From NCBI RefSeq assembly GCF_003385955.1, contig NZ_QRDW01000003.1, positions 124,001 to 188,000 on the forward strand: DNA of 64,000 bases, read 5' to 3'. Positions within the stretch are counted from its first letter, which is position 1; the number at the start of each line of letters is the position of its first letter. The position numbers and the translations under genes are program-made. The notes beneath the pieces are model-generated. The model was not told the origin of the DNA and searched no databases. It worked only from the letters and a program-made list of their open reading frames with translations. The stretch is from Aestuariispira insulae (GTDB taxonomy: Bacteria > Pseudomonadota > Alphaproteobacteria > UBA8366 > Aestuariispiraceae). This document shows positions 28,274 through 48,000 of this stretch, one piece after another.

Positions 28274-29209
28274 TTACATTTCAACAACTTCACTATCAGA
28301 TTCAGCCGCCGCCGCGGCACGCATGCCACTCAGCCGCTCAATCACCTCATCCAGCTGGTCCAATGAGCTATATTCGATGGTCAATTTTCCTTTGGAGCCT
28401 TTATCCTCAATATGAACCTTCATACCGAGATTTTCGGCCAGGGAATGTTCCAGCGCTTCCACATTGGGATCCCGATCCACGGCTTTGCGGATCTTTTTCA
28501 GCGCCTTTTCCGGTCGGCCCTGCTTGGCCAGCTTCTCGGTTTGGCGGACATTCAGGCCCTTTTTAATCACCTCATGGGCCAGATCCTCGGCATTGGAGAT
28601 CCCAATCAGCGCCCGACCATGCCCGGCGGTGAGCAAACCATCGTCAATCATGCTTTTGATCTCGTCCGGCAATTGCAGCAGACGCATCGTATTGGCTATA
28701 TGAGAGCGACTTTTGCCCAAGACCTTCGCGAGAGCATCTTGGGTATGCTGAAATTCATCGATAAGTCTTTGATAACCTTCAGCTTCTTCCAGTGGTGTAA
28801 GATCCTCCCGATGAATGTTTTCGATCAATGCCAGTTCAAGAGTATCAGAATCCGACAGATCCTTGATCAGAACAGGCACTTCATGAAGCTGAGCCCGCTG
28901 GGCCGCGCGCCAGCGCCGTTCACCGGCAACAATCTCATAGGCATTGGTCTGGGTCGGATGACGGCGCACAAGGATCGGCTGGAGAATGCCCTTTTCCTTC
29001 ACCGAATTAACCAGGCCTTCAATCGCGGAATCGTCAAACCGCTTACGCGGTTGATCCGGATTGGCTTTCAGGAATTCGACAGGAACCATTTTGGACAGCC
29101 GGAGCGCTTCTTCCCCGACATCGCTGTCAGCCGGCAGATCATCGCCCAGAAGGGCGGAAAGCCCCCGTCCCAGACCATGACGCCGTTTTGTTTCTTCAGC
29201 AGCCATCAT
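28274..29209 (-). CDS. parB: Chromosome-partitioning protein ParB
   Basis: A 311-residue ParB CTPase/DNA-binding protein that loads at parS and spreads to build the partition complex. The start carries KRRHGLGRGLSALLGD, the ParA-stimulating arginine region. The CTP-binding N-domain has PDQPRKRF, ILVRR and GERRWRAAQ (the conserved box 2), then LIENIHREDLTPLEEA (box 1). A helix-turn-helix, QDALAKVLGKSRSHIANTMRLL, binds parS. The C-terminus is the dimerisation domain. ATG 29209 overlaps the parA stop (ATGA) and has AGGAGG eight bases upstream; a longer frame from 29278 lies inside parA. Three parS sites lie within 3.5 kb. Confidence 0.95.
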   Translation of the reverse strand: MMAAEETKRRHGLGRGLSALLGDDLPADSDVGEEALRLSKMVPVEFLKANPDQPRKRFDDSAIEGLVNSVKEKGILQPILVRRHPTQTNAYEIVAGERRWRAAQRAQLHEVPVLIKDLSDSDTLELALIENIHREDLTPLEEAEGYQRLIDEFQHTQDALAKVLGKSRSHIANTMRLLQLPDEIKSMIDDGLLTAGHGRALIGISNAEDLAHEVIKKGLNVRQTEKLAKQGRPEKALKKIRKAVDRDPNVEALEHSLAENLGMKVHIEDKGSKGKLTIEYSSLDQLDEVIERLSGMRAAAAAESDSEVVEM

Positions 29210-30030
29210 GCGGACAACCTCCTCTCGCGTTTCAATATTTCGCTGGCAAGGTGGATATAGGCGCGCGAACCGCGGCAATTCACATCATAAAGCAAGACCG
29301 GCTTGCCATGACTGGGTGCCTCGGATACCCGGACATTGCGCGGGATCACGGTTTCATAAACCTTGTCACCGAAATATTCGCGCACATCAGATGCCACCAT
29401 ATCGCTCAGGTTATTGCGCTTGTCATACATGGTCAGCACCACACCCTGGATATCCAGCTTGGGATTGAACGCGCGCTTGACCCGCTCAATGGTACGGATC
29501 AGGTGGCTCAAGCCCTCCAGGGCATAAAATTCGCATTGCAGCGGCACCAGTACGGCATCGCAGGCGCAAAGCGCATTCAAGGTCAACAGCCCCAGGGCAG
29601 GGGGGCAATCGATCAGAATAAAATCAAACTCTTTCTCAACGCTTTTTAGGGAATCCTTCAGGCGGTATTCGCGCCGATCATAGTCGATCAATTCGATTTC
29701 CGCGCCGGACAGATCCATATCGCTGGGGATGAGGGACAGATTGGGTACATTGGTTTTTACCACGCCATCAATCGCCTGGGTGCGACCGACGATCATGTCA
29801 TAGGATGTCACCGTCCGATCAGGAGACGGAATCCCCAGGCCGGTGCTGGCGTTACCCTGTGCGTCAATATCAACAATCAGTACACGCTTGTCACATGCGG
29901 CCATGGCGGTCGCCAGATTCACCGCCGTCGTCGTTTTGCCGACGCCGCCTTTCTGGTTGGCAATGGCGAGAATACGCGCCTTGCCATCCTTATTCGGCTT
30001 GGTGATCTGTTCCGGTAATTTCGCGAACAT
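29206..30030 (-). CDS. parA: Chromosome-partitioning ATPase ParA
   Basis: A 274-residue Walker-type ATPase (MinD/ParA) that moves the ParB-parS complex over the nucleoid. The deviant Walker A motif is QKGGVGKTTTAVNLATA (about 26-42), with the signature lysine at its start. VDIDAQGNASTGLGI and IDCPPALGLLTLNAL give the A' and Walker B motifs. GVVLTMYDKRNNLS follows. Its first 41 bases overlap the end of rsmG. It is coupled to parB through an ATGA overlap. With parB and parS it forms a complete origin-segregation system. Confidence 0.96.
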   Translation of the reverse strand: MFAKLPEQITKPNKDGKARILAIANQKGGVGKTTTAVNLATAMAACDKRVLIVDIDAQGNASTGLGIPSPDRTVTSYDMIVGRTQAIDGVVKTNVPNLSLIPSDMDLSGAEIELIDYDRREYRLKDSLKSVEKEFDFILIDCPPALGLLTLNALCACDAVLVPLQCEFYALEGLSHLIRTIERVKRAFNPKLDIQGVVLTMYDKRNNLSDMVASDVREYFGDKVYETVIPRNVRVSEAPSHGKPVLLYDVNCRGSRAYIHLASEILKRERRLSA

Positions 30031-30637
30031 CTGAAAACCCCTTTATGAAGAGTATCGAGCCTTCCGAATCGGTTCGGCTGGGAATTCGATATTCTTTTAT
30101 ATGCCATATATAATTTGCTTCCGTCAATTCCTCTTTAATTCGCTTTCCTTTGAGAAAAATACACGGAGCTTGTGGTTTTATCAGGGGTTTGGCGTAAGTC
30201 AGTAAGTCCTTGATAGAAGCCAATGCTCGCGCGGTGCAAACGTCAGCTTCCAGGTTTTTAACAGTTTCGATGCGTTTATTGTGGATGGTCACGGGGGTGT
30301 CAGTGGCCCGGGCCACCTCCCTCAGAAAAGCGCATTTTCGACCATCTGATTCGATCAGGTGCACATCCGGCACGCCCAGGATAGCCAAAACCAGACCGGG
30401 AAATCCGGCACCGCTGCCAATATCAACCAACCGTTCGACAGTATCGGGGATATGTTCAAAGACCTGGGCAGAATCCAACATATGGCGTTCCCAAAGATCG
30501 GGTATGGTCTTCGGCCCGACCAAATTGATCTTCTTCTGCCATTTTTCCAACAATGCCGCGTAGGTTTTCAGTTTCTCCAGTGTTTCACATGAAACATCGG
30601 TGAGTGCCTGGAACGCATCCGCGGTCATAGTGGTCAT
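29990..30637 (-). CDS. rsmG: 16S rRNA m7G527 methyltransferase
   Basis: A 215-residue RsmG (GidB) methyltransferase, which modifies G527 in the 530 loop of 16S rRNA. The SAM motif is [17 protein letters not shown] (about 70-86), followed by [17 protein letters not shown] and [24 protein letters not shown] near the N-terminus is typical. The start overlaps the mnmG stop (ATGA). Its 3' end overlaps parA by 41 bases, an unusually long overlap. A near-perfect parS sequence lies inside its 5' coding region at 30581-30596. The mnmE-mnmG-rsmG-parA-parB order is a widely conserved origin-region cluster. Confidence 0.95.
30581..30596. other. parS centromere site, one mismatch
   Basis: The sequence TGTTTCACATGAAACA matches the 16-bp parS consensus TGTTTCACGTGAAACA at 15 of 16 positions, with A for G at position 9. 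It lies inside rsmG, encoding part of VSCETLE, and is 0.5 kb from parA. Both ParB half-sites are intact apart from the central base. Confidence 0.8.
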
Positions 30638-32607: not shown

Positions 32608-32623
32608 TGTTTCACGTGAAACA
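32608..32623. other. parS centromere site, perfect
   Basis: TGTTTCACGTGAAACA is an exact 16-bp palindromic match to the bacterial parS consensus. It lies in the mnmG-mnmE intergenic region, about 2.6 kb upstream of parA, and is the expected ParB-loading site. Confidence 0.93.
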
Positions 32624-32668
32624 TCGGTGCTTGGAAACTCAGACGAACCGGAAACAACCCACACACGA

Positions 32669-32684
32669 TGTTTCACGTGAAACA
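32669..32684. other. parS centromere site, perfect, second copy
   Basis: A second exact TGTTTCACGTGAAACA, 61 bp from the first (start to start) and ending 16 bp before the mnmE stop codon. Paired sites at this spacing suggest joint ParB loading. Confidence 0.93.
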
Positions 32685-39613: not shown

Positions 39614-40879
39614 CTACTGATTCATGGAATCGAAGAAATCGTCGTTATTTTTGGTATCCTTGATCTTGCCAAGCAGGAATTCCATCGCGTCGGTGACCCC
39701 CATCGGCATAAGAATACGGCGCAGCACCCACATCTTGGAGAGCGTGCCCTTATCCACCAGCAATTCTTCCTTACGGGTTCCGGACTTGGTGATATCGATC
39801 GCCGGGAAGGTCCGTTTGTCGGACAGTTTGCGGTCCAGGATCACCTCAGAGTTACCGGTACCTTTGAATTCCTCGAAGATCACCTCATCCATGCGGCTGC
39901 CGGTATCCACCAGCGCGGTCGAAATGATGGTCAGGGATCCGCCTTCTTCAATGTTTCGGGCCGCACCAAAGAAACGTTTCGGGCGCTGCAGGGCATTTGC
40001 ATCCACACCACCGGTCAGAACCTTACCCGAAGAGGGCACAACCGTGTTGTAGGCACGTGCCAGGCGGGTGATGGAATCCAACAGGATCACAACATCGCGT
40101 TTATGCTCAACCAGGCGCTTGGCCTTTTCGATGATCATTTCCGCAACCTGGACATGGCGCTGGGCGGGTTCGTCAAAGGTGGAGGAGACCACTTCGCCAC
40201 GCACGGAGCGCTGCATGTCGGTCACTTCCTCGGGCCGTTCATCGATCAACAGAACGATCAGATAAACTTCCGGGTTATTCTTGGAAATTGCGTGCGCGAC
40301 ATTCTGCATCAGCATCGTTTTACCGGTGCGCGGCGGTGCCACGATCAGGGCGCGCTGGCCCTTGCCGATCGGCGCGATCAGATCGATCACGCGGGTCGAC
40401 AGGTCTTTGTTTTTCTTGTCATCATCGCCTTCGATTTCCATACCCAGCTTTTCATCAGGATAAAGCGGCGTCAGGTTGTCGAAATTGATCCGGTGGCGAA
40501 CTTTCTCCGGCTCATCAAAATTGACCGTGTTCACTTTCAGCAGGGCGAAATAGCGCTCGCCGTCTTTTGGGGCGCGGATCTGGCCTTCGACCGTATCGCC
40601 GGTGCGCAAACCGAAACGCCGGATCTGGCTCGGGCTGATATAGATATCGTCAGGGCCTGCCAGGTAGTTGGATTCCGGAGAGCGGAGGAAGCCGAAGCCG
40701 TCCTGCAACACTTCCAAAACCCCTTCACCAAAAATGGCAACGTCGTTTTCCGCCAGTCTTTTCAGACAGGCAAACATCAGTTCCTGTTTGCGAAGGGTGC
40801 TGGCATTTTCGACTTCCAGCTCTTCAGCAAAAGCGAGCATTTCGGCCGGGTGTTTGGACTTGAGTTCGTTCAGATGCAT
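39614..40879 (-). CDS. rho: Transcription termination factor Rho
   Basis: A 421-residue hexameric RNA helicase. The N-terminal domain begins [20 protein letters not shown], then the cold-shock-like RNA-binding fold with [20 protein letters not shown]. The ATPase core has Walker [13 protein letters not shown] (about 177-188), the Q-loop region and Walker [17 protein letters not shown], with [21 protein letters not shown] and the R-loop. The length equals that of typical Rho. A 267-bp AT-rich leader separates it from hemJ (40880-41146); no autoregulatory element could be identified there. Confidence 0.97.
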
Positions 40880-41146
40880 GGGAATATCGTCAGATTGCTT
40901 CAGAAATGGAGCGTGGGATCCTGGGAGAGGGAACTTAAGAAAGTTTTTTATCTTTACGCAGGATCTGTGCCGGGCTGGGCACGAAATTGAGGATGGTCTG
41001 CCGCGTCACACGGCACAATCATCCAATACAGGAGCCTTTTACAGCTGTCAAAGGGGTTAATTTGCTTCGCCGGATCACTGTTGCCTCCCTGCAACAAAAA
41101 ACGGCCCTGAAACCTGTCTACAAATCAACCTTAACAGGCCAAAGGT

Positions 41147-41569
41147 TTAGAAGGGTTTAACGATCACCATGAAAATGATGATGAAGAGCAAAAAAGTCGG
41201 CACTTCATTGGCGATGCGGAAAAATTTCTCCGATTTCGCATTCTCGTCATTCTCAAAAGCCTTGCGCCACCGGGCGCAGGCCATATGAAAACCGGTCATA
41301 CAGACAACGGCAGTCAGTTTCACATGGGCCCAGCCATCCACAATCCAATTGCCATCAATCAGCAGAAACAGCCCAAAGGCCCAGGTCGCCATCATAGCCG
41401 GGTTCATAATCGCCCGCAGCAGCCGCCGTTCCATCACCTTGAAGGTTTCCGATTTGTCGGATCCCTTTTCAGCGCTCACGTGATAAATGAACAACCGCGG
41501 CAGATAAAACAGACCCGCCATCCAGGCAATTACAGAAATCACATGAAGTGCCTTGATGATGTCATACAT
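41147..41569 (-). CDS. hemJ: Protoporphyrinogen oxidase HemJ
   Basis: A 140-residue integral membrane protein with four hydrophobic helices. The first contains ALHVISVIAWMAGLFYLPRL with the conserved histidine, then FIYHVSAEKG, and a later helix has AHVKLTAVVCMTGFHMACAR, supplying further conserved His and Lys residues. HemJ converts protoporphyrinogen IX to protoporphyrin IX in most alphaproteobacteria lacking HemG/HemY. The frame opens two codons earlier with TTG, so ATG 41569 is used. It is followed by hemH 26 bp away (reading leftward the order is hemE, hemH, hemJ, rho). Confidence 0.94.
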   Translation of the reverse strand: MYDIIKALHVISVIAWMAGLFYLPRLFIYHVSAEKGSDKSETFKVMERRLLRAIMNPAMMATWAFGLFLLIDGNWIVDGWAHVKLTAVVCMTGFHMACARWRKAFENDENAKSEKFFRIANEVPTFLLFIIIFMVIVKPF

Positions 41570-41595
41570 GAACAATGATCCCGAAGATTTTGTTT

Positions 41596-42672
41596 TTATG
41601 AATTTCTAATACAGCCAGACCATTGATTGCCACAGCAATATCCGCCCTTTTGACAATCCACACGGCCGTTTTCCCAATTTGATGCATCGAGGGCCAACCC
41701 GGCCAACCCGCCTATGAAGTCGTCATGATTATCAACCGTGCCGACCCTGAGATAGGTGCCAACCCCGTTTTCCCGGGCCAACTCGGCATATTCGATATCC
41801 AATTCCACCAATGTCTCGGAATGTTCGGAAACAAAGGCAATTGGGACGACCACCAGGCCAACATCATCCTGACCGGCCCGGGCGATCTCATCTTCCGTGC
41901 TGGGACCGATCCATTCCAGCGGGCCGACCCGGCTCTGATAACAAACCTGGTAATCCAGCTCTTTTGGTCCAATAGCCTTCTCGGCCATATAATTGACCAC
42001 TGAGGCCACTGTGGTTTCCACCTGCTCCTGGTAGGGGTCTCCCTTCTCAATCACCTTCTTGGGCAAACCATGGGCAGAAAACAGGATCCTGAGATTGTTT
42101 GATTGTCCCGGCTCCAACTCGGCCAGTTTTTTGTGAATTTTATCCGCAACCGCTGCCACGAAACCCGGTTCCTTCGGATAACAACAGGTCAGACGGGTTG
42201 GTGCTTTCAATCCAGCCTTGTGCGCCGCGCGCATCCAGTCCTGATAGGAAGAGCCGGTGGTGGTGGTGGAAAATTGCGGATAAAGCGGCAGCAAAATCAC
42301 CTCATCCGCCCCCCAGTCGCGTACTTTCGCAGCTGTTTCATCCGACATGGGGTGCCAATAGCGCATGGTGATAAAACAGCGGACTTCCCCCAACGGCTGG
42401 TCAGTCATCCCGTTTATCTGGGCTTCCAGAGCCCTGGCCTGGGCCTGGGTATTTTCCAGTATCGGTGATTTATTGCCAATCTCGGCATAAATCTCCTGCG
42501 CGGTTTTCTCCCGCCGGCTGGAAATCAGCTTGGCGAGGAACCAACGCATCGGCTGGGGTACGGAAATAATCGCAGGATCATGGAACAGATTGAAAAGAAA
42601 CGGTTTTACCGCTTCCAATCGATCCGGCCCGCCCAGATTGAAAAGCACAATAGCGGTTTTCCTGCTGGTCAT
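41596..42672 (-). CDS. hemH: Ferrochelatase
   Basis: A 358-residue ferrochelatase inserting Fe2+ into protoporphyrin IX, the last step of protohaem synthesis. It begins KTAIVLFNLGGPD, then CFITMRYWHPMSDETAAK, and the active-site block LFSAHGLPKKVIEKGDPYQEQV (about 203-224) with its histidine. Further on VVVPIAFVSEHSETLVELDIEY contains the invariant histidine-glutamate region. The C-terminus has four cysteines (CQKGGYCCGNQWSGC), resembling the Fe-S cluster binding tail of some ferrochelatases. It lies between hemE and hemJ in one haem operon. Confidence 0.95.
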   Translation of the reverse strand: MTSRKTAIVLFNLGGPDRLEAVKPFLFNLFHDPAIISVPQPMRWFLAKLISSRREKTAQEIYAEIGNKSPILENTQAQARALEAQINGMTDQPLGEVRCFITMRYWHPMSDETAAKVRDWGADEVILLPLYPQFSTTTTGSSYQDWMRAAHKAGLKAPTRLTCCYPKEPGFVAAVADKIHKKLAELEPGQSNNLRILFSAHGLPKKVIEKGDPYQEQVETTVASVVNYMAEKAIGPKELDYQVCYQSRVGPLEWIGPSTEDEIARAGQDDVGLVVVPIAFVSEHSETLVELDIEYAELARENGVGTYLRVGTVDNHDDFIGGLAGLALDASNWENGRVDCQKGGYCCGNQWSGCIRNS

Positions 42673-42698
42673 TTCCGTTTGATTCCCCTGAATTTAAC

Positions 42699-43736
42699 TT
42701 AAACCCGGCCGCGGACGAGATTCATCAACCGCTCCACGTGGGATACCGGTGTTTCCTTGATGATCCCGTGGCCCAGATTGAAGATGAATGGCCCATCTTG
42801 CAGATTTTCCAGGATACGGCCAACCGATTGATCCAGCATATCGCCACCGGCAAGCAGCACCTGCGGATCCAGGTTGCCCTGGACCGGCAATTTCTTCTGA
42901 AGGGTCTCAGCCGCCCATTTTGTCGGCACAGTGGTATCCAGACCGACTGCGGTCACCCCGGTTGCTTCCACATAGGCCGGGTAATTGATACCGGCTCCCC
43001 TTGGAAAGCCAATGAACGGTATGTCCGGATGACGCTGTTTGAAACGGTCCACAATTCGTTTGGTTGGCTCAATAACCCAGCGTGCAAACGCATCTTCCGG
43101 CAAAACACCTGCCCAACTGTCAAACAATTGAACCGCTTCCACACCCTGATCGACCTGGGCACATAAATAATCGGCTGTTGCGTCTGCCACCAGATTGATC
43201 AGATCCTGAAAACTGTTGGGGTTTTGAAAGGCCCAGGCCTTGGTATTGGCAAAATCCTTACTGCTGCCGCCTTCGATCATGTAGGTGGCAACCGTCCAGG
43301 GCGCACCTGCAAAACCAATGAGCGCCGTTTGGTCCGGCAAGCGCTGTTTCATTAGGGTTATGGCCTCATAAACCGGTTCCAGCCGTTGATGGATCCAATC
43401 AGCGGAAAGCTTGGAAAGATCACTGCCATTGCGAATAGGCGCCAGTTTGGGCCCTTCACCCTCAACAAAAGTTACTTCCTGTCCAAGCGCATCGGGCAAT
43501 ACCAGAATGTCTGAAAACATGATTGCAGCATCAAAACCAAAGCGCCGGATTGGCTGCAATGTCACTTCGCAAGCCAACTCAGGGGTATAGCAAAGTTCAA
43601 GAAAACCGCTGACATTTTTGCGGACTTCCCGATATTCCTCGAGATATCGACCGGCTTGGCGCATGAGCCAAATGGGTGGCCGCGCCTGTGTTTCACCATG
43701 AAGGGCTGCCAGAAAAGGTTTCACTGTCTTTGTCAC
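42699..43736 (-). CDS. hemE: Uroporphyrinogen decarboxylase
   Basis: A 345-residue TIM-barrel enzyme converting uroporphyrinogen III to coproporphyrinogen III. The first signature PPIWLMRQAGRYLEEYRE (about 19-36) is intact, followed by MFSDILVLPDALG and GFAGAPWTVATYMIEGGSSK, the second signature. The C-terminus has NLGHGIIKETPVSHVERL. GTG 43736 is chosen because it gives MTKTVKPFLAAL and has GGGGAT upstream; a longer frame opens with TTG at 43775. It is the left-hand gene facing the proposed oriC, as in Caulobacter and Rickettsia. Confidence 0.95.
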   Translation of the reverse strand: MTKTVKPFLAALHGETQARPPIWLMRQAGRYLEEYREVRKNVSGFLELCYTPELACEVTLQPIRRFGFDAAIMFSDILVLPDALGQEVTFVEGEGPKLAPIRNGSDLSKLSADWIHQRLEPVYEAITLMKQRLPDQTALIGFAGAPWTVATYMIEGGSSKDFANTKAWAFQNPNSFQDLINLVADATADYLCAQVDQGVEAVQLFDSWAGVLPEDAFARWVIEPTKRIVDRFKQRHPDIPFIGFPRGAGINYPAYVEATGVTAVGLDTTVPTKWAAETLQKKLPVQGNLDPQVLLAGGDMLDQSVGRILENLQDGPFIFNLGHGIIKETPVSHVERLMNLVRGRV

Positions 43737-44242
43737 GTTGGATCCCCGGGGAAAAATACTTTGAATTTTGATCAAGGACTCAGGCCCTCGAAGTTACCCA
43801 TCCCTATCATTTATATAATTTATTAAAAAGATTTGTTGTTGTTTATGTCGCAGGGGGTAGTGGGGATTAAATTTTGTCCACGATTCCATCCCAAGGAATA
43901 GAATTGGCAAATCAGCACTGTGGAAATTTCGCATATGACTCTTCTTAAGATATTATGAAACAACACAAAATAAGAGTGTTGATAATCTGTATAACGGATC
44001 TCTTTTTCAGGCTTATACGCGTGATGATTCCATCTGGATGACAGTTATTCATAGGCGTAAAAAGACACCTGAAATAAGTTGAATAAGGTGCGCATGTTTG
44101 CTCTATGAAGTTATGCAGATTCTTTTCCCCAGGTGATTCACAGGGTTGCCCTGTTAGTTATCCAACTGGGGCGGAAAAAGCGTCTCCGGGGGAAGATAAC
44201 AGCGGAATCCTTGGCATTCCCAGGAACAGGCGAGGTCAGATA
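43737..44242. other. Proposed chromosomal replication origin (oriC)
   Basis: A 506-bp gene-free stretch between hemE and ppsR, the origin position known in Caulobacter and Rickettsia. An AT-rich segment at 43806-43845 could be the unwinding element. Degenerate DnaA boxes (one or two mismatches to TTATCCACA) lie at 43874-43882, 43977-43985 (minus), 44045-44053, 44078-44086 (minus), 44111-44119, 44134-44142 and 44158-44166. Seven GANTC sites (43777, 43882, 43937, 44026, 44118, 44135, 44205) are clustered, about four times chance. GANTC is the CcrM methylation target. Genes on both sides point away. No exact DnaA box or CtrA-type TTAA-N7-TTAA motif was found. Confidence 0.72.
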
Positions 44243-45082
44243 TTGACAAAATTCCATGTCCATCTTGTATCGGATTCAACCGGTGAAACCGTCCATGGTA
44301 TTGCCCGAGCCTGTATCTCCCAGTTCGAAGGGGTCGAGGCGGAAGAACATCAATGGCCGCTCATGCGGACTGTCGCGCAGCTTGAAAAAGTGATTGACCA
44401 GATCAAGGAAAAACCGGGCGTTGTTATGTATACCCTGGTCAATGACGAGATGCGCCAAACCCTGCATGCCGCCTGCCGCCGTTATCGCATTCCCTGCATT
44501 TCGATCCTGGATCCGGTGATCAATTTCCTGATCAATTACCTAGGGGTGAAAAGCAAAGGTGAGCCTGGCCGCCAGCATAGCCTGGATGCGGAGTATTTCT
44601 CCAGGATCGATGCCATGCATTTTGCCCTCGCCCATGATGATGGCCAGGGGCTTTGGAATTTGAATGCCGCCGATGTGATTTTGGTGGGGGTTTCACGGAC
44701 CTCAAAAACACCGACCTGTGTCTATTTGGCCAACCGCGGGATCAAGGCCGGCAATGTGCCTTTTGTGCCTGGATTGGTTCCGGAAGAGCTGAAAGCCCTG
44801 GATAACCGGGTGAATGGTCCTCTGGTTGTCGGTCTGACCAAGGAACCAGGCAGCTTGGTGCAATTGCGCCGCAGCCGTTTACGAATGATTTCAGATGATG
44901 AGGAAACGGATTATGTCGACCTGGATGAGGTCAAAAAGGAAGTGATTGCCTGCCGCCGGCTTTGCACCGACAAAGGTTGGCCGGTTCTCGATGTAACCCG
45001 GCGATCCATTGAGGAAACCGCCGCGGCCGTTGTGCGCCTGCGGGAATTGCGTGATGCCAAGAGAAGGGAAACGAAACAATGA
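44243..45082 (+). CDS. ppsR: Pyruvate, water dikinase regulatory protein (DUF299 kinase/pyrophosphorylase)
   Basis: A 279-residue bifunctional serine/threonine kinase and phosphotransferase regulating PEP synthase or pyruvate phosphate dikinase. It begins FHVHLVSDSTGETVHGIARA, and the P-loop-like ILVGVSRTSKTPTCVYLANRG (about 152-172) is the DUF299 signature. TTG at 44243 is proposed as start: GAGG lies seven bases upstream and it matches the family N-terminus. A longer ATG frame from 44105 would extend 46 unrelated residues into the oriC gap. This is the classical RP001-type gene next to hemE. It overlaps maf by ATGA. Confidence 0.9.
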   Translation: MTKFHVHLVSDSTGETVHGIARACISQFEGVEAEEHQWPLMRTVAQLEKVIDQIKEKPGVVMYTLVNDEMRQTLHAACRRYRIPCISILDPVINFLINYLGVKSKGEPGRQHSLDAEYFSRIDAMHFALAHDDGQGLWNLNAADVILVGVSRTSKTPTCVYLANRGIKAGNVPFVPGLVPEELKALDNRVNGPLVVGLTKEPGSLVQLRRSRLRMISDDEETDYVDLDEVKKEVIACRRLCTDKGWPVLDVTRRSIEETAAAVVRLRELRDAKRRETKQ

Positions 45083-45675
45083 CCCAGCTGGTGCTGGCTT
45101 CCGCCAGTAAAACCCGGGCGAAACTGTTGGAGGATGCAGGGGTTTCGGTCTTTTGTGATCCGGCCAATCTGGATGAAGATGGTGTCAAGGAAAGCCTGAA
45201 AGCAGAAGGTGCGACCGCAGTCCAGGTGGCGGAGACGCTCGCCGAATTAAAGGCCCGCGCGGTTTCGCGCCGCCATCCGGGGGCTTTTGTAATCGGGGGC
45301 GACCAGACTTTGGATTGCAACGGTATCTGGTTTGATAAGCCTGTGGATATGGACCAGGCGCGTGGCCATATGATGGCTCTGCGCGGCAAGACCCATCGGC
45401 TGAATGCCGCGGTTTGCGTCATGCGCGATGATGAGGTTCTCTGGCATCTGAATGACCCGGTGGAAATGGTGATGCGTCCGTTCTCTGATGATTTCCTGGA
45501 TTGGTATATTGGGGAGTGCGGCACAGAAATCTGTGATTCCGTTGGCGGATATCGTCTGGAAGGCCTTGGCGCACAACTGTTTTCCGCGGTGCGCGGTGAC
45601 TATTTCACGGTGCTGGGCCTGCCTTTGCTGCCACTGCTAGACTTCCTCCGGGCTAACGGAGCTCTGAAAGCATGA
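45079..45675 (+). CDS. maf: Maf family nucleotide pyrophosphatase
   Basis: A 198-residue Maf/Ham1-related nucleoside triphosphate pyrophosphatase that hydrolyses non-canonical nucleotides. It begins LVLASASKTRAKLLEDAGV, with KTR in place of the commoner PRR. FVIGGDQTLDCNG contains the catalytic aspartate. The C-terminus GGYRLEGLGAQLFSAVRGDY is the conserved product-site block. It overlaps ppsR and aroE by four bases each (ATGA), forming the ppsR-maf-aroE operon conserved next to alphaproteobacterial origins. Confidence 0.93.
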   Translation: MTQLVLASASKTRAKLLEDAGVSVFCDPANLDEDGVKESLKAEGATAVQVAETLAELKARAVSRRHPGAFVIGGDQTLDCNGIWFDKPVDMDQARGHMMALRGKTHRLNAAVCVMRDDEVLWHLNDPVEMVMRPFSDDFLDWYIGECGTEICDSVGGYRLEGLGAQLFSAVRGDYFTVLGLPLLPLLDFLRANGALKA

Positions 45676-46520
45676 GCCAGGATATCTTGAAAGCCGGGGT
45701 GATCGGCTGGCCGATTTCACATTCCCTCTCACCCAGACTGCATGGTTTCTGGCTTGATCAACTTTCGATCCATGGTCGTTACGATGCCGTACCGGTTGTG
45801 CCGGAAGACCTGGCGAGTTTTGTCCGGTCCCTACCGGAAAACGGTTTCCAAGGCGTGAATGTCACGGTCCCGCATAAAGAGGCGGTCATGGATCATTGTG
45901 ACAAGATTGACGATCTGGCGCTGCGCATCGGGGCGGTAAATACCTTGATTGTCGATGATCAGGGTCTAATCCTGGGATCCAACACCGACCACTATGGTTT
46001 TAAGCAAAATCTGTTGGCGAGCGGTGAAATTGCGGCGGGGCCAAAAGAACGGGCCGCTGTGGTCATCGGTGCTGGCGGCGCATCCCGCGCAATTTGCACC
46101 GCCTTGGAAGAGTTGGGTTTTCCGAAAATCCACTTGCTGAACAGAACAGTGTCACGGGCGCAATCCGTGGCCAGGGATCTGGGGGGGCCGATCTTGCCCG
46201 GGCCTTTGTCCGATCTGCCGGCTTTACTGCCCGATATAGGATTATTGGTCAATACCAGCTCCCTTGGCATGAAAGGTCAGGATCCACTGCATGTGGACCT
46301 GTCGGACTTGCCCATGGAATGTCTGGTCACGGATATCGTTTATAATCCGTTGATGACTGATTTGCTCCGGCAGGCGCGGGAGAGGGGCAATAAGGTGGTT
46401 GATGGACTGGGCATGCTTTTATATCAGGCGGTGCCTGGCTTCGAGGCCTGGTTCCGGCCAATGGAAAAACCAATGGTGACGGATGCGCTGAGGAAATACG
46501 TGCTGGCAGGAATTGCGTAA
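45672..46520 (+). CDS. aroE: Shikimate dehydrogenase
   Basis: A 282-residue NADP-dependent enzyme reducing 3-dehydroshikimate in aromatic amino acid synthesis. The shikimate site is GWPISHSLSPRLH (about 12-24), NVTVPHKEAV with catalytic lysine, and NTDHYGF with catalytic aspartate. The NADP-binding loop is VVIGAGGASRAICTALEELG (about 128-147), followed by LLNRTVSRA. DGLGMLLYQAV is the C-terminal block. It starts within maf's stop codon. A 115-bp gap with a small hairpin precedes coaE. Confidence 0.95.
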   Translation: MSQDILKAGVIGWPISHSLSPRLHGFWLDQLSIHGRYDAVPVVPEDLASFVRSLPENGFQGVNVTVPHKEAVMDHCDKIDDLALRIGAVNTLIVDDQGLILGSNTDHYGFKQNLLASGEIAAGPKERAAVVIGAGGASRAICTALEELGFPKIHLLNRTVSRAQSVARDLGGPILPGPLSDLPALLPDIGLLVNTSSLGMKGQDPLHVDLSDLPMECLVTDIVYNPLMTDLLRQARERGNKVVDGLGMLLYQAVPGFEAWFRPMEKPMVTDALRKYVLAGIA

Positions 46521-46635
46521 CATGCCTAATAAATGAGTCCCCGTAAGGACTAATAAGGCCATCCTGCAGTGTTTTCAGTTCATCCATCACTTTTAAAGTA
46601 AAACATTAACTGTAAATTTTAAACCTGGATAAAAC

Positions 46636-47265
46636 ATGTTCATCATCGGGCTGACAGGATCGATCGGAATGGGGAAAAGCACGGCCTCTTCCATGTTCCG
46701 GCGCTTGGGGGTGGCCGTGCAGGATTCCGATGCGGCAGTGCATAAGCTGATGGCGCATGGTGGCCGTGCTGTTTCCCTTGTGGAAAGGGCGTTTCCAGGC
46801 GTCGCCCGTGACGGGCAGATAGACCGCGCGCTTTTGGGCAGTCGCGTTTTTGGGGATCCCGCAGCGTTAAAATGCTTGGAAGGTATTCTGCATCCGCTTG
46901 TAGCGCAGGAGAGGGAGCATTTCCTGCGTCAGCAGGCGTTGCAGGGCCGCCCGTTGGTGGTGCTGGATGTGCCATTGCTGTTTGAAACGGGGGGGGATCG
47001 CGATTGTGATTTGACTGTGCTTGTCACGGCTCCGCCGTTCGTGCAGGAAAGCCGGGTCCTGCGCCGGCCTGGCATGAGCCTTGAAAAACTGAACCGGATC
47101 CGCACCCAGCAGATGCCGGATCGGGAAAAAAGACAACGCGCGGACATTGTGTTGGAAACGGGTCTTGGAAAACGGCCGGTCTGGCTGGCTATTCAGGCGA
47201 TTGTCAGGCAGTCTGTCCACCGAAAAGGCGCTCATTGGCCCCGCCGGGCCAAGGTGCCTGGTTGA
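46636..47265 (+). CDS. coaE: Dephospho-CoA kinase
   Basis: A 209-residue P-loop kinase for the last step of CoA synthesis. The Walker A loop is GLTGSIGMGKSTASSMF (about 5-21), followed by DSDAAVHKLM, the lid region and LLFETGGDRDCDLTVLVTAP. QMPDREKRQRADIVLETG is the C-terminal CoaE motif. A run of eight G at 46989-46996 encodes the Gly-Gly of ETGGD and may be prone to slippage. The gene precedes dnaQ by 43 bp, as in many alphaproteobacteria. Confidence 0.93.
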   Translation: MFIIGLTGSIGMGKSTASSMFRRLGVAVQDSDAAVHKLMAHGGRAVSLVERAFPGVARDGQIDRALLGSRVFGDPAALKCLEGILHPLVAQEREHFLRQQALQGRPLVVLDVPLLFETGGDRDCDLTVLVTAPPFVQESRVLRRPGMSLEKLNRIRTQQMPDREKRQRADIVLETGLGKRPVWLAIQAIVRQSVHRKGAHWPRRAKVPG

Positions 47266-47308
47266 TTGAAGAGACCAAGAGTCTGCAAAAGGGAAAGATT
47301 TGAGGCAG

Positions 47309-47998
47309 ATGCGCGAGATTGTGCTGGATACGGAAACAACGGGCTTTGATCCCAAATCCGGTGACCGGATTGTGGAGATTGGGTGTGTCGAACTGATCAA
47401 CCGCATGGCCACGGGCAAGACCTATCACCAGTATATCAACCCGGAACGCGATATGCCGGAAGAGGCGTTCAAGGTGCATGGCCTGGGCATCGACTATTTG
47501 GAAAAGCTGCCAGTCATTAATGATATCATGGGGGATTTTCTGGATTTCATCGGGGATGCGGACCTGGTGATCCACAACGCGGCCTTCGACATGAAATTCC
47601 TCAATGCCGAACTTGGCTGGCTGGGATATGAGCAGTTGCCCATGAGCAGGGCAGTCGACACCCTGGCCATTGCGCGGGCCAAATTTCCCGGAGCTCAGGT
47701 TAGCCTGGATGCGCTTTGTCGTCGCTATGAGATTGATAACTCATCCCGTTCTTTCCATGGCGCGTTGCTGGATTCCGAGCTTCTGGCGGAAGTCTATCTG
47801 GAACTGACCGGAGGTCGTCAGCCAGGCCTTGAGTTGAGCGCGGAAGAGGCAGAGGCATCGAGCGGTGCTGTCAAGGAAGAGGTGACCATTAGCCGTCCGG
47901 TCAGGGAAGCCCGGCCTCATGCGCCGTTGGATGCGGAACTTGCCGCCCATGCCGCCTTCCTTGAAAGCATCACCGAACCGATCTGGAACCGGGAGTGA
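47309..47998 (+). CDS. dnaQ: DNA polymerase III epsilon subunit (3'-5' proofreading)
   Basis: A 229-residue DEDDh exonuclease. Exo I is IVLDTETTGFDP near the N-terminus (D and E metal ligands). Exo II is HNAAFDMKFLNAELG, and Exo III is FHGALLDSELLAEVY with the catalytic His-x4-Asp. The C-terminal tail, about residues 170-229, is Glu/Ala-rich and probably contacts the alpha subunit. ATG 47309 gives MREIVLDTETTG, the usual start in relatives; the frame opens three codons earlier with TTG. A hairpin lies directly after the stop. Confidence 0.94.
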   Translation: MREIVLDTETTGFDPKSGDRIVEIGCVELINRMATGKTYHQYINPERDMPEEAFKVHGLGIDYLEKLPVINDIMGDFLDFIGDADLVIHNAAFDMKFLNAELGWLGYEQLPMSRAVDTLAIARAKFPGAQVSLDALCRRYEIDNSSRSFHGALLDSELLAEVYLELTGGRQPGLELSAEEAEASSGAVKEEVTISRPVREARPHAPLDAELAAHAAFLESITEPIWNRE

Positions 47999-48000
47999 AC

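Follow-up and report, generated by a model that had tools for sequence, protein, structure and literature searches.

A candidate chromosome replication origin between hemE and ppsR in Aestuariispira insulae, with an adjoining DnaA-trio-like array that appears to depart from the middle-A rule

Background

According to the passages of the cited papers that deal with origins, the replication origins of Caulobacter crescentus (Cori) and Rickettsia prowazekii lie between hemE and a gene of COG1806 (PMC1914354). The Caulobacter origin combines moderate G-boxes with very weak W-boxes that depend on cooperation (PMC4468827), and CtrA sites are said to be absent from some origins of the class (PMC1914354, PMC4468827). 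The order of parts in the basal unwinding system (BUS) of Bacillus subtilis is box, GC-rich spacer, trios and AT-rich stretch (PMC8287927); the criteria described for a BUS are a trio middle base of A (3'-NAN-5'), a DnaA box no more than 16 bp from the trios, and duplex opening by DnaA that depends on both box and trios being intact (PMC8287927, PMC10721633). Within the B. subtilis pocket, Arg202 and Glu228 of DnaA hold the trio G and Asn187 holds the middle A; changing the trio A to T or G hurt origin function more than changing it to C, and none of the pocket residues is reported to be universally conserved (PMC10721633). DnaA of Escherichia coli binds single-stranded 5'-TTGT-3' and 5'-TTATT-3' in the DUE (PMC10797057, PMC6727663).

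The stretch of DNA analysed here (the window, 64,000 nucleotides, G000:C3:124001-188000) lies on a 443-kb contig of the 4.82-Mb draft genome of Aestuariispira insulae. The gap between its hemE and ppsR genes shares boundary genes, an AT-rich part and DnaA boxes with the origins described for Cori and R. prowazekii, and its boxes are weak, as those of Cori are. Unlike Cori, the gap has no exact TTAA-N7-TTAA CtrA site (the best, at 43945, has one mismatch and is not convincing), and it carries a trinucleotide array, of which the passages on Cori in PMC1914354 and PMC4468827 make no mention. The window resembles the B. subtilis BUS, as described in those passages, in the order of its parts, in its trinucleotide period, in keeping the G and in a DnaA with a basic residue 202 and Glu228. 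It differs in that its array-proximal box is degenerate, and the Alphaproteobacteria differ in that the middle base is T, A or G and that most have Tyr or Phe for Asn187. As in the E. coli oriC, an AT-rich element stands beside a box, and TTGTTGTTG in the window resembles the TTGT/TTATT motifs; the E. coli oriC, unlike the window, has other flanking genes and only three trios reported (PMC10797057, PMC6727663).

Results and discussion

The locus

The initial annotation had proposed an oriC in the gap, and the coordinates that it gave are exact: the complement of the hemE GTG ends at 43736 and ppsR opens with TTG at 44243, with 506 bp between them. To the left hemH and rho stand beside hemE, and to the right maf, aroE, coaE and a dnaQ-like exonuclease gene stand beside ppsR (Pfam). 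Divergence of the haem genes and of ppsR-maf-aroE from the gap, likewise claimed, is borne out by the open reading frames and Pfam, and a divergent hemE adjoins ppsR in 114 of 131 loci of the class. The gap is 58.9% AT as against 45.3% for the window, and the AT-rich element that had been noted in it is located by the richest 40-mer, which starts at 43805 with 87.5% AT. There is no Rfam match to a known RNA element at 40000-48000 and no tRNA in the 64-kb window. Features are collected in Table 1.

Table 1. Features of the hemE-ppsR region and of the parABS region, in window positions
Feature	Position	Strand	Basis or remark
parB and parA	28274..30030	-	Pfam
parS, one mismatch	30581..30596	.	motif search, G000:C3:154581
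two exact parS sites between mnmG and mnmE	32608..32684	.	G000:C3:156608 and 156669
hemE (uroporphyrinogen decarboxylase), left boundary gene	42699..43736	-	Pfam URO-D E 6e-124; GTG start at 43736
candidate oriC region, intergenic gap, 506 bp	43737..44242	.	skew minimum, DnaA-box cluster, divergent hemE-ppsR
AT-rich element, probable DNA unwinding element	43805..43832	.	AT-richest 40-mer, 43805-43844, runs into the array
trinucleotide array TTG TTG TTG TTT ATG TCG, DnaA-trio-like	43833..43850	+	read 3'-GTT-5'; middle T, not A
G-rich spacer CAGGGGGTAG	43851..43860	.	by eye, L004 and L008 against L023: place of the Terasakiella box TGTGGATAA, here degenerate
box TAATCCCCA (contains TCCCCA), first half of element GGGGATTAAATTT	43861..43869	-	two mismatches; 9/9 identical with G001
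element GGGGATTAAATTT	43862-43874		exact in 7/13 own-family gaps
box-like TTGTCCACG, faces the box at 43861	43874..43882	+	two mismatches to TTATNCACA
weak DnaA box ATTTCCACA	43919..43927	-	motif scan
weak DnaA box TTATCAACA	43977..43985	-	motif scan; one mismatch to TTATCCACA
weak DnaA box TTATACAGA	43986..43994	-	motif scan; 8/9 identical with G001
weak DnaA box TTATTCATA	44045..44053	+	motif scan; 8/9 identical with G001
weak DnaA box TTATGCAGA	44111..44119	+	motif scan
weak box TTTTCCCCA (contains TCCCCA)	44123..44131	+	motif scan; 8/9 identical with G001
weak DnaA box TGATTCACA	44134..44142	+	motif scan; one mismatch to the G-box TGATCCACA
weak box TTATCCAAC	44158..44166	+	motif scan
ppsR / COG1806, right boundary gene	44243..45082	+	Pfam Kinase-PPPase E 1e-88; TTG start at 44243

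Evidence for an origin in the gap

Along the contig, GC skew is negative in 12/12 ten-kb bins of C3:1-120000, negative in the five 8-kb bins of the window before contig position 164000 and positive in the three after it, and positive in 10/12 bins of 188001-308000. The cumulative minimum of the window falls at 43640, 97 bp from the gap. A closed relative (G001, 4,361,962 bp) has a ppsR 79% identical to that of the window, and 20 sampled 20-kb stretches of its chromosome, 10 negative and 10 positive, form two blocks with two switches, the negative one running from 2.86 Mb through 0 to 0.62 Mb and the positive one from 0.62 to 2.66 Mb. The skew minimum of this relative, sought within 600-640 kb, is 627,537, at the beginning of ppsR, whose match runs from 627,503. 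The GC-skew check attached to the original proposal therefore comes out in its favour on the window's own contig and in the closed relative.

The parABS genes and sites lie 11-15 kb from the gap, the parS sites 11-13 kb to its left. These sites (window 30581, 32608 and 32669) sit in a block of genes that we take, from their open reading frames, to be gidB, mnmG and mnmE. In 5/7 genomes of the family searched, two parS sites stand close together and a third is about 2 kb away; the exceptions are G006, with three close sites, and G005, with a wider spacing.

The presence of parS and parAB at or near mnmG-mnmE, together with the bluntness of skew minima as a tool, gives some ground for placing the origin at mnmG-mnmE or at dnaA, with the gap merely nearby. 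This is extremely improbable, since the skew minimum falls within about 100 bp of the gap in two genomes. The mnmG-mnmE region carries parS sites but has no skew minimum, which is at the gap, and is rejected as the origin. The dnaA gene is on a different contig from the window in its own genome and, in the closed relative, lies at 335.9 kb, 0.29 Mb from the gap and on the negative skew arm; it is rejected likewise. Both were alternatives that the initial annotation had named against itself.

The hemE-ppsR gap is the best candidate for oriC by its skew minimum, the flip of skew in the closed relative, its proximity to parABS and its cluster of box-like sites, the densest in about 320 kb, and judged from these sequence features it is very probably the site at which chromosome replication starts. 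The claim that its position matches known alphaproteobacterial origins agrees with the hemE-COG1806 placement given in the passages of PMC1914354; the position is ordinary for the class, already textbook and not new.

DnaA boxes in the gap

The 506-bp gap holds no exact TTATNCACA. Sites with at most one mismatch to it number 5 (0.58 expected), sites with at most two number 15 (6.1 expected), and TTWTNCACA with at most one mismatch occurs 7 times (1.36 expected); 0/400 dinucleotide shuffles reach 5, 15 or 7, respectively. On all three counts the gap comes top of 6,380 overlapping 500-bp segments covering about 320 kb. Other motifs are weaker: one site with one mismatch to TTATCCACA (63/400 shuffles reach one), two TCCCCA (34/400 reach two, not significant) and five TGATCCACA with at most two mismatches (17/400 reach five). 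TCCCCA and TGATCCACA are here taken to be the W-box and the G-box. Two sites in the gap have one mismatch to the IHF consensus, a raw count that is not convincing.

Seven degenerate boxes had been claimed originally; the count of seven is recovered under TTWTNCACA, but the boxes behind it had been left unlisted. The lack of an exact box, described then as unusual, is instead common: 60/114 gaps of the class and 11/13 of the own family are without an exact TTATNCACA. The weak-affinity, cooperative binding of DnaA suggested on that occasion is plausible. Identity to the closed relative is 73% at box positions outside the core, 66% in the core (43800-43882) and 34% in the remainder of the gap, the last figure including unaligned stretches. 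Within 43862-43882, GGGGATTAAATTT and the facing GTCCAC make an inverted pair of box-like halves around AAATTT.

The trinucleotide array in the window

Beside the AT-rich stretch lie a trinucleotide array and the GGGGATTAAATTT element, both overlooked in the earlier reading. The order on the top strand is AT-rich, array, CAGGGGGTAG, GGGGATTAAATTT and facing TTGTCCACG, and at least three trinucleotide repeats adjoin the AT-rich element on the strand expected for a BUS. Three units, TTG TTG TTG, are clear, and none of them has A in the middle. In Terasakiella (L004, L008), five ATG/TTG units are followed by GGCC or GTCC, the perfect box TGTGGATAA and then CGGGGATCAAATTT; this perfect box at the equivalent place fixes the orientation of the array. 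Between the array and the two-mismatch box at 43861 there are 10 bp when TTT ATG TCG are counted as trios and 19 bp when only the TTG units are, and because the array-proximal box of the window is degenerate the usual strong anchor is missing. The array scores 12.2 under the model described below, above the shuffle 99% level of 11.4, and relatives have it at the same place and on the same strand.

The array across the class

The 131 ppsR loci comprise 7 named records, 14 from the own family, 30 from the class and 80 fetched by place. The class search for ppsR gave 137 genomes, of which 3 overlapped the family set, 30 and 80 were used and 24 were left out, some as same-genus repeats or weak or split matches, the others standing last in the list. 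The model of the array has a T-rich first position, G at the third, a free middle base and a mild AT preference on the left. Over the 114 gaps with a divergent hemE, the hemE-to-ppsR strand has a median score of 11.4 under this model, compared with 4.3 for the opposite strand and 4.9 for shuffles. The shuffle 95% level is exceeded by 86/114 gaps on the hemE-to-ppsR strand versus 6/114 on the other, and the 99% level by 57/114 versus 1/114. When three trios served for selection, the next two held out had G at 0.60 and 0.61 (surrounding positions 0.13-0.44; 0.23 and 0.25 at the same two trios on the other strand), a signal that the G-rich sequence after the array inflates somewhat.

The middle bases of the 86 arrays (401 trios) are T161 A130 G106 C4. 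C thus occupies 4/401 middle positions versus 18% in shuffled arrays scoring at least 8.5. Arrays mixing A with other bases number 72/86 and those without A 14/86; none of the 86 is all A, and to judge from these arrays many relatives also break the middle-A rule. Middle G rises with the GC content of the gap (Spearman 0.52), as expected of a middle base free to drift.

An array might be only the G/T-biased edge of the AT-rich element, with no role of its own in an ordinary weak-box hemE-COG1806 oriC. The identity of the oriC requires no trios, C is scarce on the array strand at both the first and the middle position, a pattern that could come from strand bias, and an array above threshold is absent from 28/114 gaps. 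The three-base period in the hold-out and the near absence of the array from the other strand speak against such an edge, which is accordingly rated unlikely, as does the sister class treated below.

The 17 loci of the 131 without a divergent hemE beside ppsR, two of them with fewer than 400 bases upstream, were scored apart. The array is kept upstream of ppsR in 6/17, with GGGGAT just after it in 5/6; these six represent about three lineages (L003/L005, L105/L115, L131/L137). A further locus, L156, passes the score but at 0.7 kb from ppsR and without the element, and the other ten fail. In L003 and L005 no hemE is found in the 10.8 kb around ppsR, and the array and a GGGGATT element are retained upstream. 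Because hemE-less loci retain it, the array appears to travel with the origin, not with hemE.

These loci bear on the idea that the array belongs to the hemE leader, as an unstructured CAA-type repeat on the hemE strand that aids translation. In the window it is indeed on the transcribed side of hemE, 97-114 nt upstream. However, six loci keep it with no hemE beside ppsR, relatives read CTA, CCA or CAA on the hemE strand, and a like array occurs in the dnaA-dnaN gap of the sister class. The leader element is rejected on the evidence of the hemE-less loci and, as a reading, is given very little credence.

Residue 187 of DnaA in the Alphaproteobacteria

Residues were numbered by counting along the printed alignment to B. 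subtilis DnaA 8btg. Tyr202 of the window's own DnaA aligns with B. subtilis Asn187, and at B. subtilis positions 187, 190, 193, 202 and 228 it has Y, I, L, K and E. The BUS pocket (Asn187, Ile190, Ile193, Arg202, Glu228) is therefore not fully matched, and only the change at 187 is non-conservative. In 63 Alphaproteobacteria position 202 is Lys and position 228 Glu throughout. Residue 187, read in 93 Alphaproteobacteria (18 of the 86 array-bearing genomes being without a reading), is Y76 F7 N4 H3 V2 S1; the counts for 27 other Pseudomonadota are T8 N8 A7 Q4. E. coli DnaA has Gln at this position. Genomes with Tyr187 still use A in the middle of 90/265 trios, so the code is better described as relaxed than as switched.

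The four Asn187 Alphaproteobacteria come from two families (f92 and f49), and a search of the family of G104 for more gave the same two genomes only. By eye, beside box-like sequence, they read AAG TAG TAG (G104, G180), CAG AAG GAG (G150) and GAG TCG TTG (G061). Of the four, just the f49 pair exceeds the threshold; its ten scored trios have middle bases A4 C2 G2 T2, with A or C in 6/10. The f92 pair falls short of the threshold and was read by eye. Middle C occurs in 2/10 Asn187 trios versus 2/391 others (p 0.003, in a test chosen after seeing the data).

An Asn187 genome outside these two families and the sister class, L224, showed no clear array near dnaA. When the dnaA flanks of this genome and of 19 genomes with Thr, Ala or Gln187 were scanned and the top score over as many as four stretches and strands was taken for each, 4/20 reached 10: two with Ala (L198, L204) and two with Gln (L200, L203), their middle bases being mixed. 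These genomes may have their origins elsewhere than in the dnaA flanks.

Among six Alphaproteobacteria with a strongly diverged DnaA (G022, G064, G122, G148, G153, G192), five fall below the array threshold and G122 is just above it. This pattern is no test, because some genomes with an ordinary DnaA (G050, G053, G103, G110, G146, G184) score low too. For L250-L254 (G064, G022, G122, G192, G153) the DnaA match has E of about 2e-49 to 8e-56 and 4/5 gaps are below threshold. A very diverged DnaA (PF00308 E 4e-32, Ser187) and a gap without a trio array are seen in L255 (G148, family f111) and L158, whose origin has possibly been rewired or moved.

Contrast with an Asn187 sister class

A class of the same phylum represented by G229, possibly the Zetaproteobacteria, has Asn187 in 30/30 loci. 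Its array lies in the dnaA-dnaN gap, on the minus strand and opposite dnaA, in most of the 30 loci (L256-L278), an example being TAG TCA TCA TCA TAG GGGC TGTGGATAG, with a TGTGGATAR-like box. No module was seen upstream of dnaA, and the plus strand of the dnaA-dnaN gap reaches a score of about 10 in 4/30. When a single model with a free middle position is applied to both groups, it gives C60 A53 T6 G3 at that position in the sister class (27/30 loci at a score of at least 10, the three below it being left out of the base counts) and T118 A109 G71 C1 in the Alphaproteobacteria (76/114 at least 10; other strand 9/114). The contrast of A/C versus T/G between the two gives a Fisher p of 2e-28, relatedness being ignored, and some of the sister-class T and G are register slips (L220, L259, L263).

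Alignment on the box only, with no selection for the array, was possible for 46/114 Alphaproteobacteria and 27/30 sister-class loci that passed the box filter, several of the sister-class picks being plainly the wrong box. In the 27 loci T stands at 0.52-0.78 at -19, -16, -13, -10 and -7, with mainly A or C one base after each T, least clearly at -12 and -9. This periodicity is a further point against the array as a mere edge of the AT-rich element. In the 46 Alphaproteobacteria the spacing varies and the period smears; C is at most 7% from -24 to -11.

Proposed mechanism

The favoured reading, held with fair confidence, is that the gap is the oriC, that its weak boxes load DnaA and that the adjoining array is a variant of the DnaA-trio, 5'-TNG-3', in which N can be almost any base but C. 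The repeats beside the AT-rich element probably help to pull the strands apart. Loading of DnaA would begin at the weak boxes clustered on the right-hand side of the AT-rich stretch, where the boxes are seen and the binding is presumed. From the conserved box at 43861 a filament would extend leftward, cross the G-rich spacer and continue on the array's top strand; by stretching the array it would open the AT-rich element for the loading of the helicase. This opening by a filament is proposed because the order of the parts matches that of the B. subtilis BUS.

Lys202 and Glu228 would capture the G of every trio, and the amine on the next base would no longer be needed with Tyr187 in place of Asn187. 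Because residues 202 and 228 are kept in kind and Asn187 has become Tyr, the filament probably still captures G and no longer demands A. We propose that the relaxed, not-C trio code is tied to the loss of Asn187; the correlation between trios and residue 187 in these sequences is strong but rests on few lineages. That there is a lineage-specific code set by residue 187, with Asn reading the amine-bearing A or C and an aromatic residue reading or tolerating T, A or G and rejecting C, is a tentative suggestion, put at a little under an even chance. The estimate is lowered by the scored Asn187 Alphaproteobacteria, in which no more than 6/10 trios have A or C, and by L224.

Implications

Among the titles listed by a literature search that covered chiefly openly available papers, none concerned alphaproteobacterial trios or residue 187 as their determinant. 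From the sequences compared here, a trio element at odds with the published middle-A rule appears to be in use throughout the class, and the one DnaA residue credited with enforcing that rule is altered as well. If residue 187 does set such a code, the rule that the middle base must be A would hold for one type of DnaA pocket only, and searches for a BUS that require 3'-NAN-5' would mis-call alphaproteobacterial origins. The reading of single-stranded DNA by DnaA would become directly testable with the swap of one residue and one base, and in origins lacking a strong DnaA box the array would serve as a sequence signature by which to place the unwinding site.
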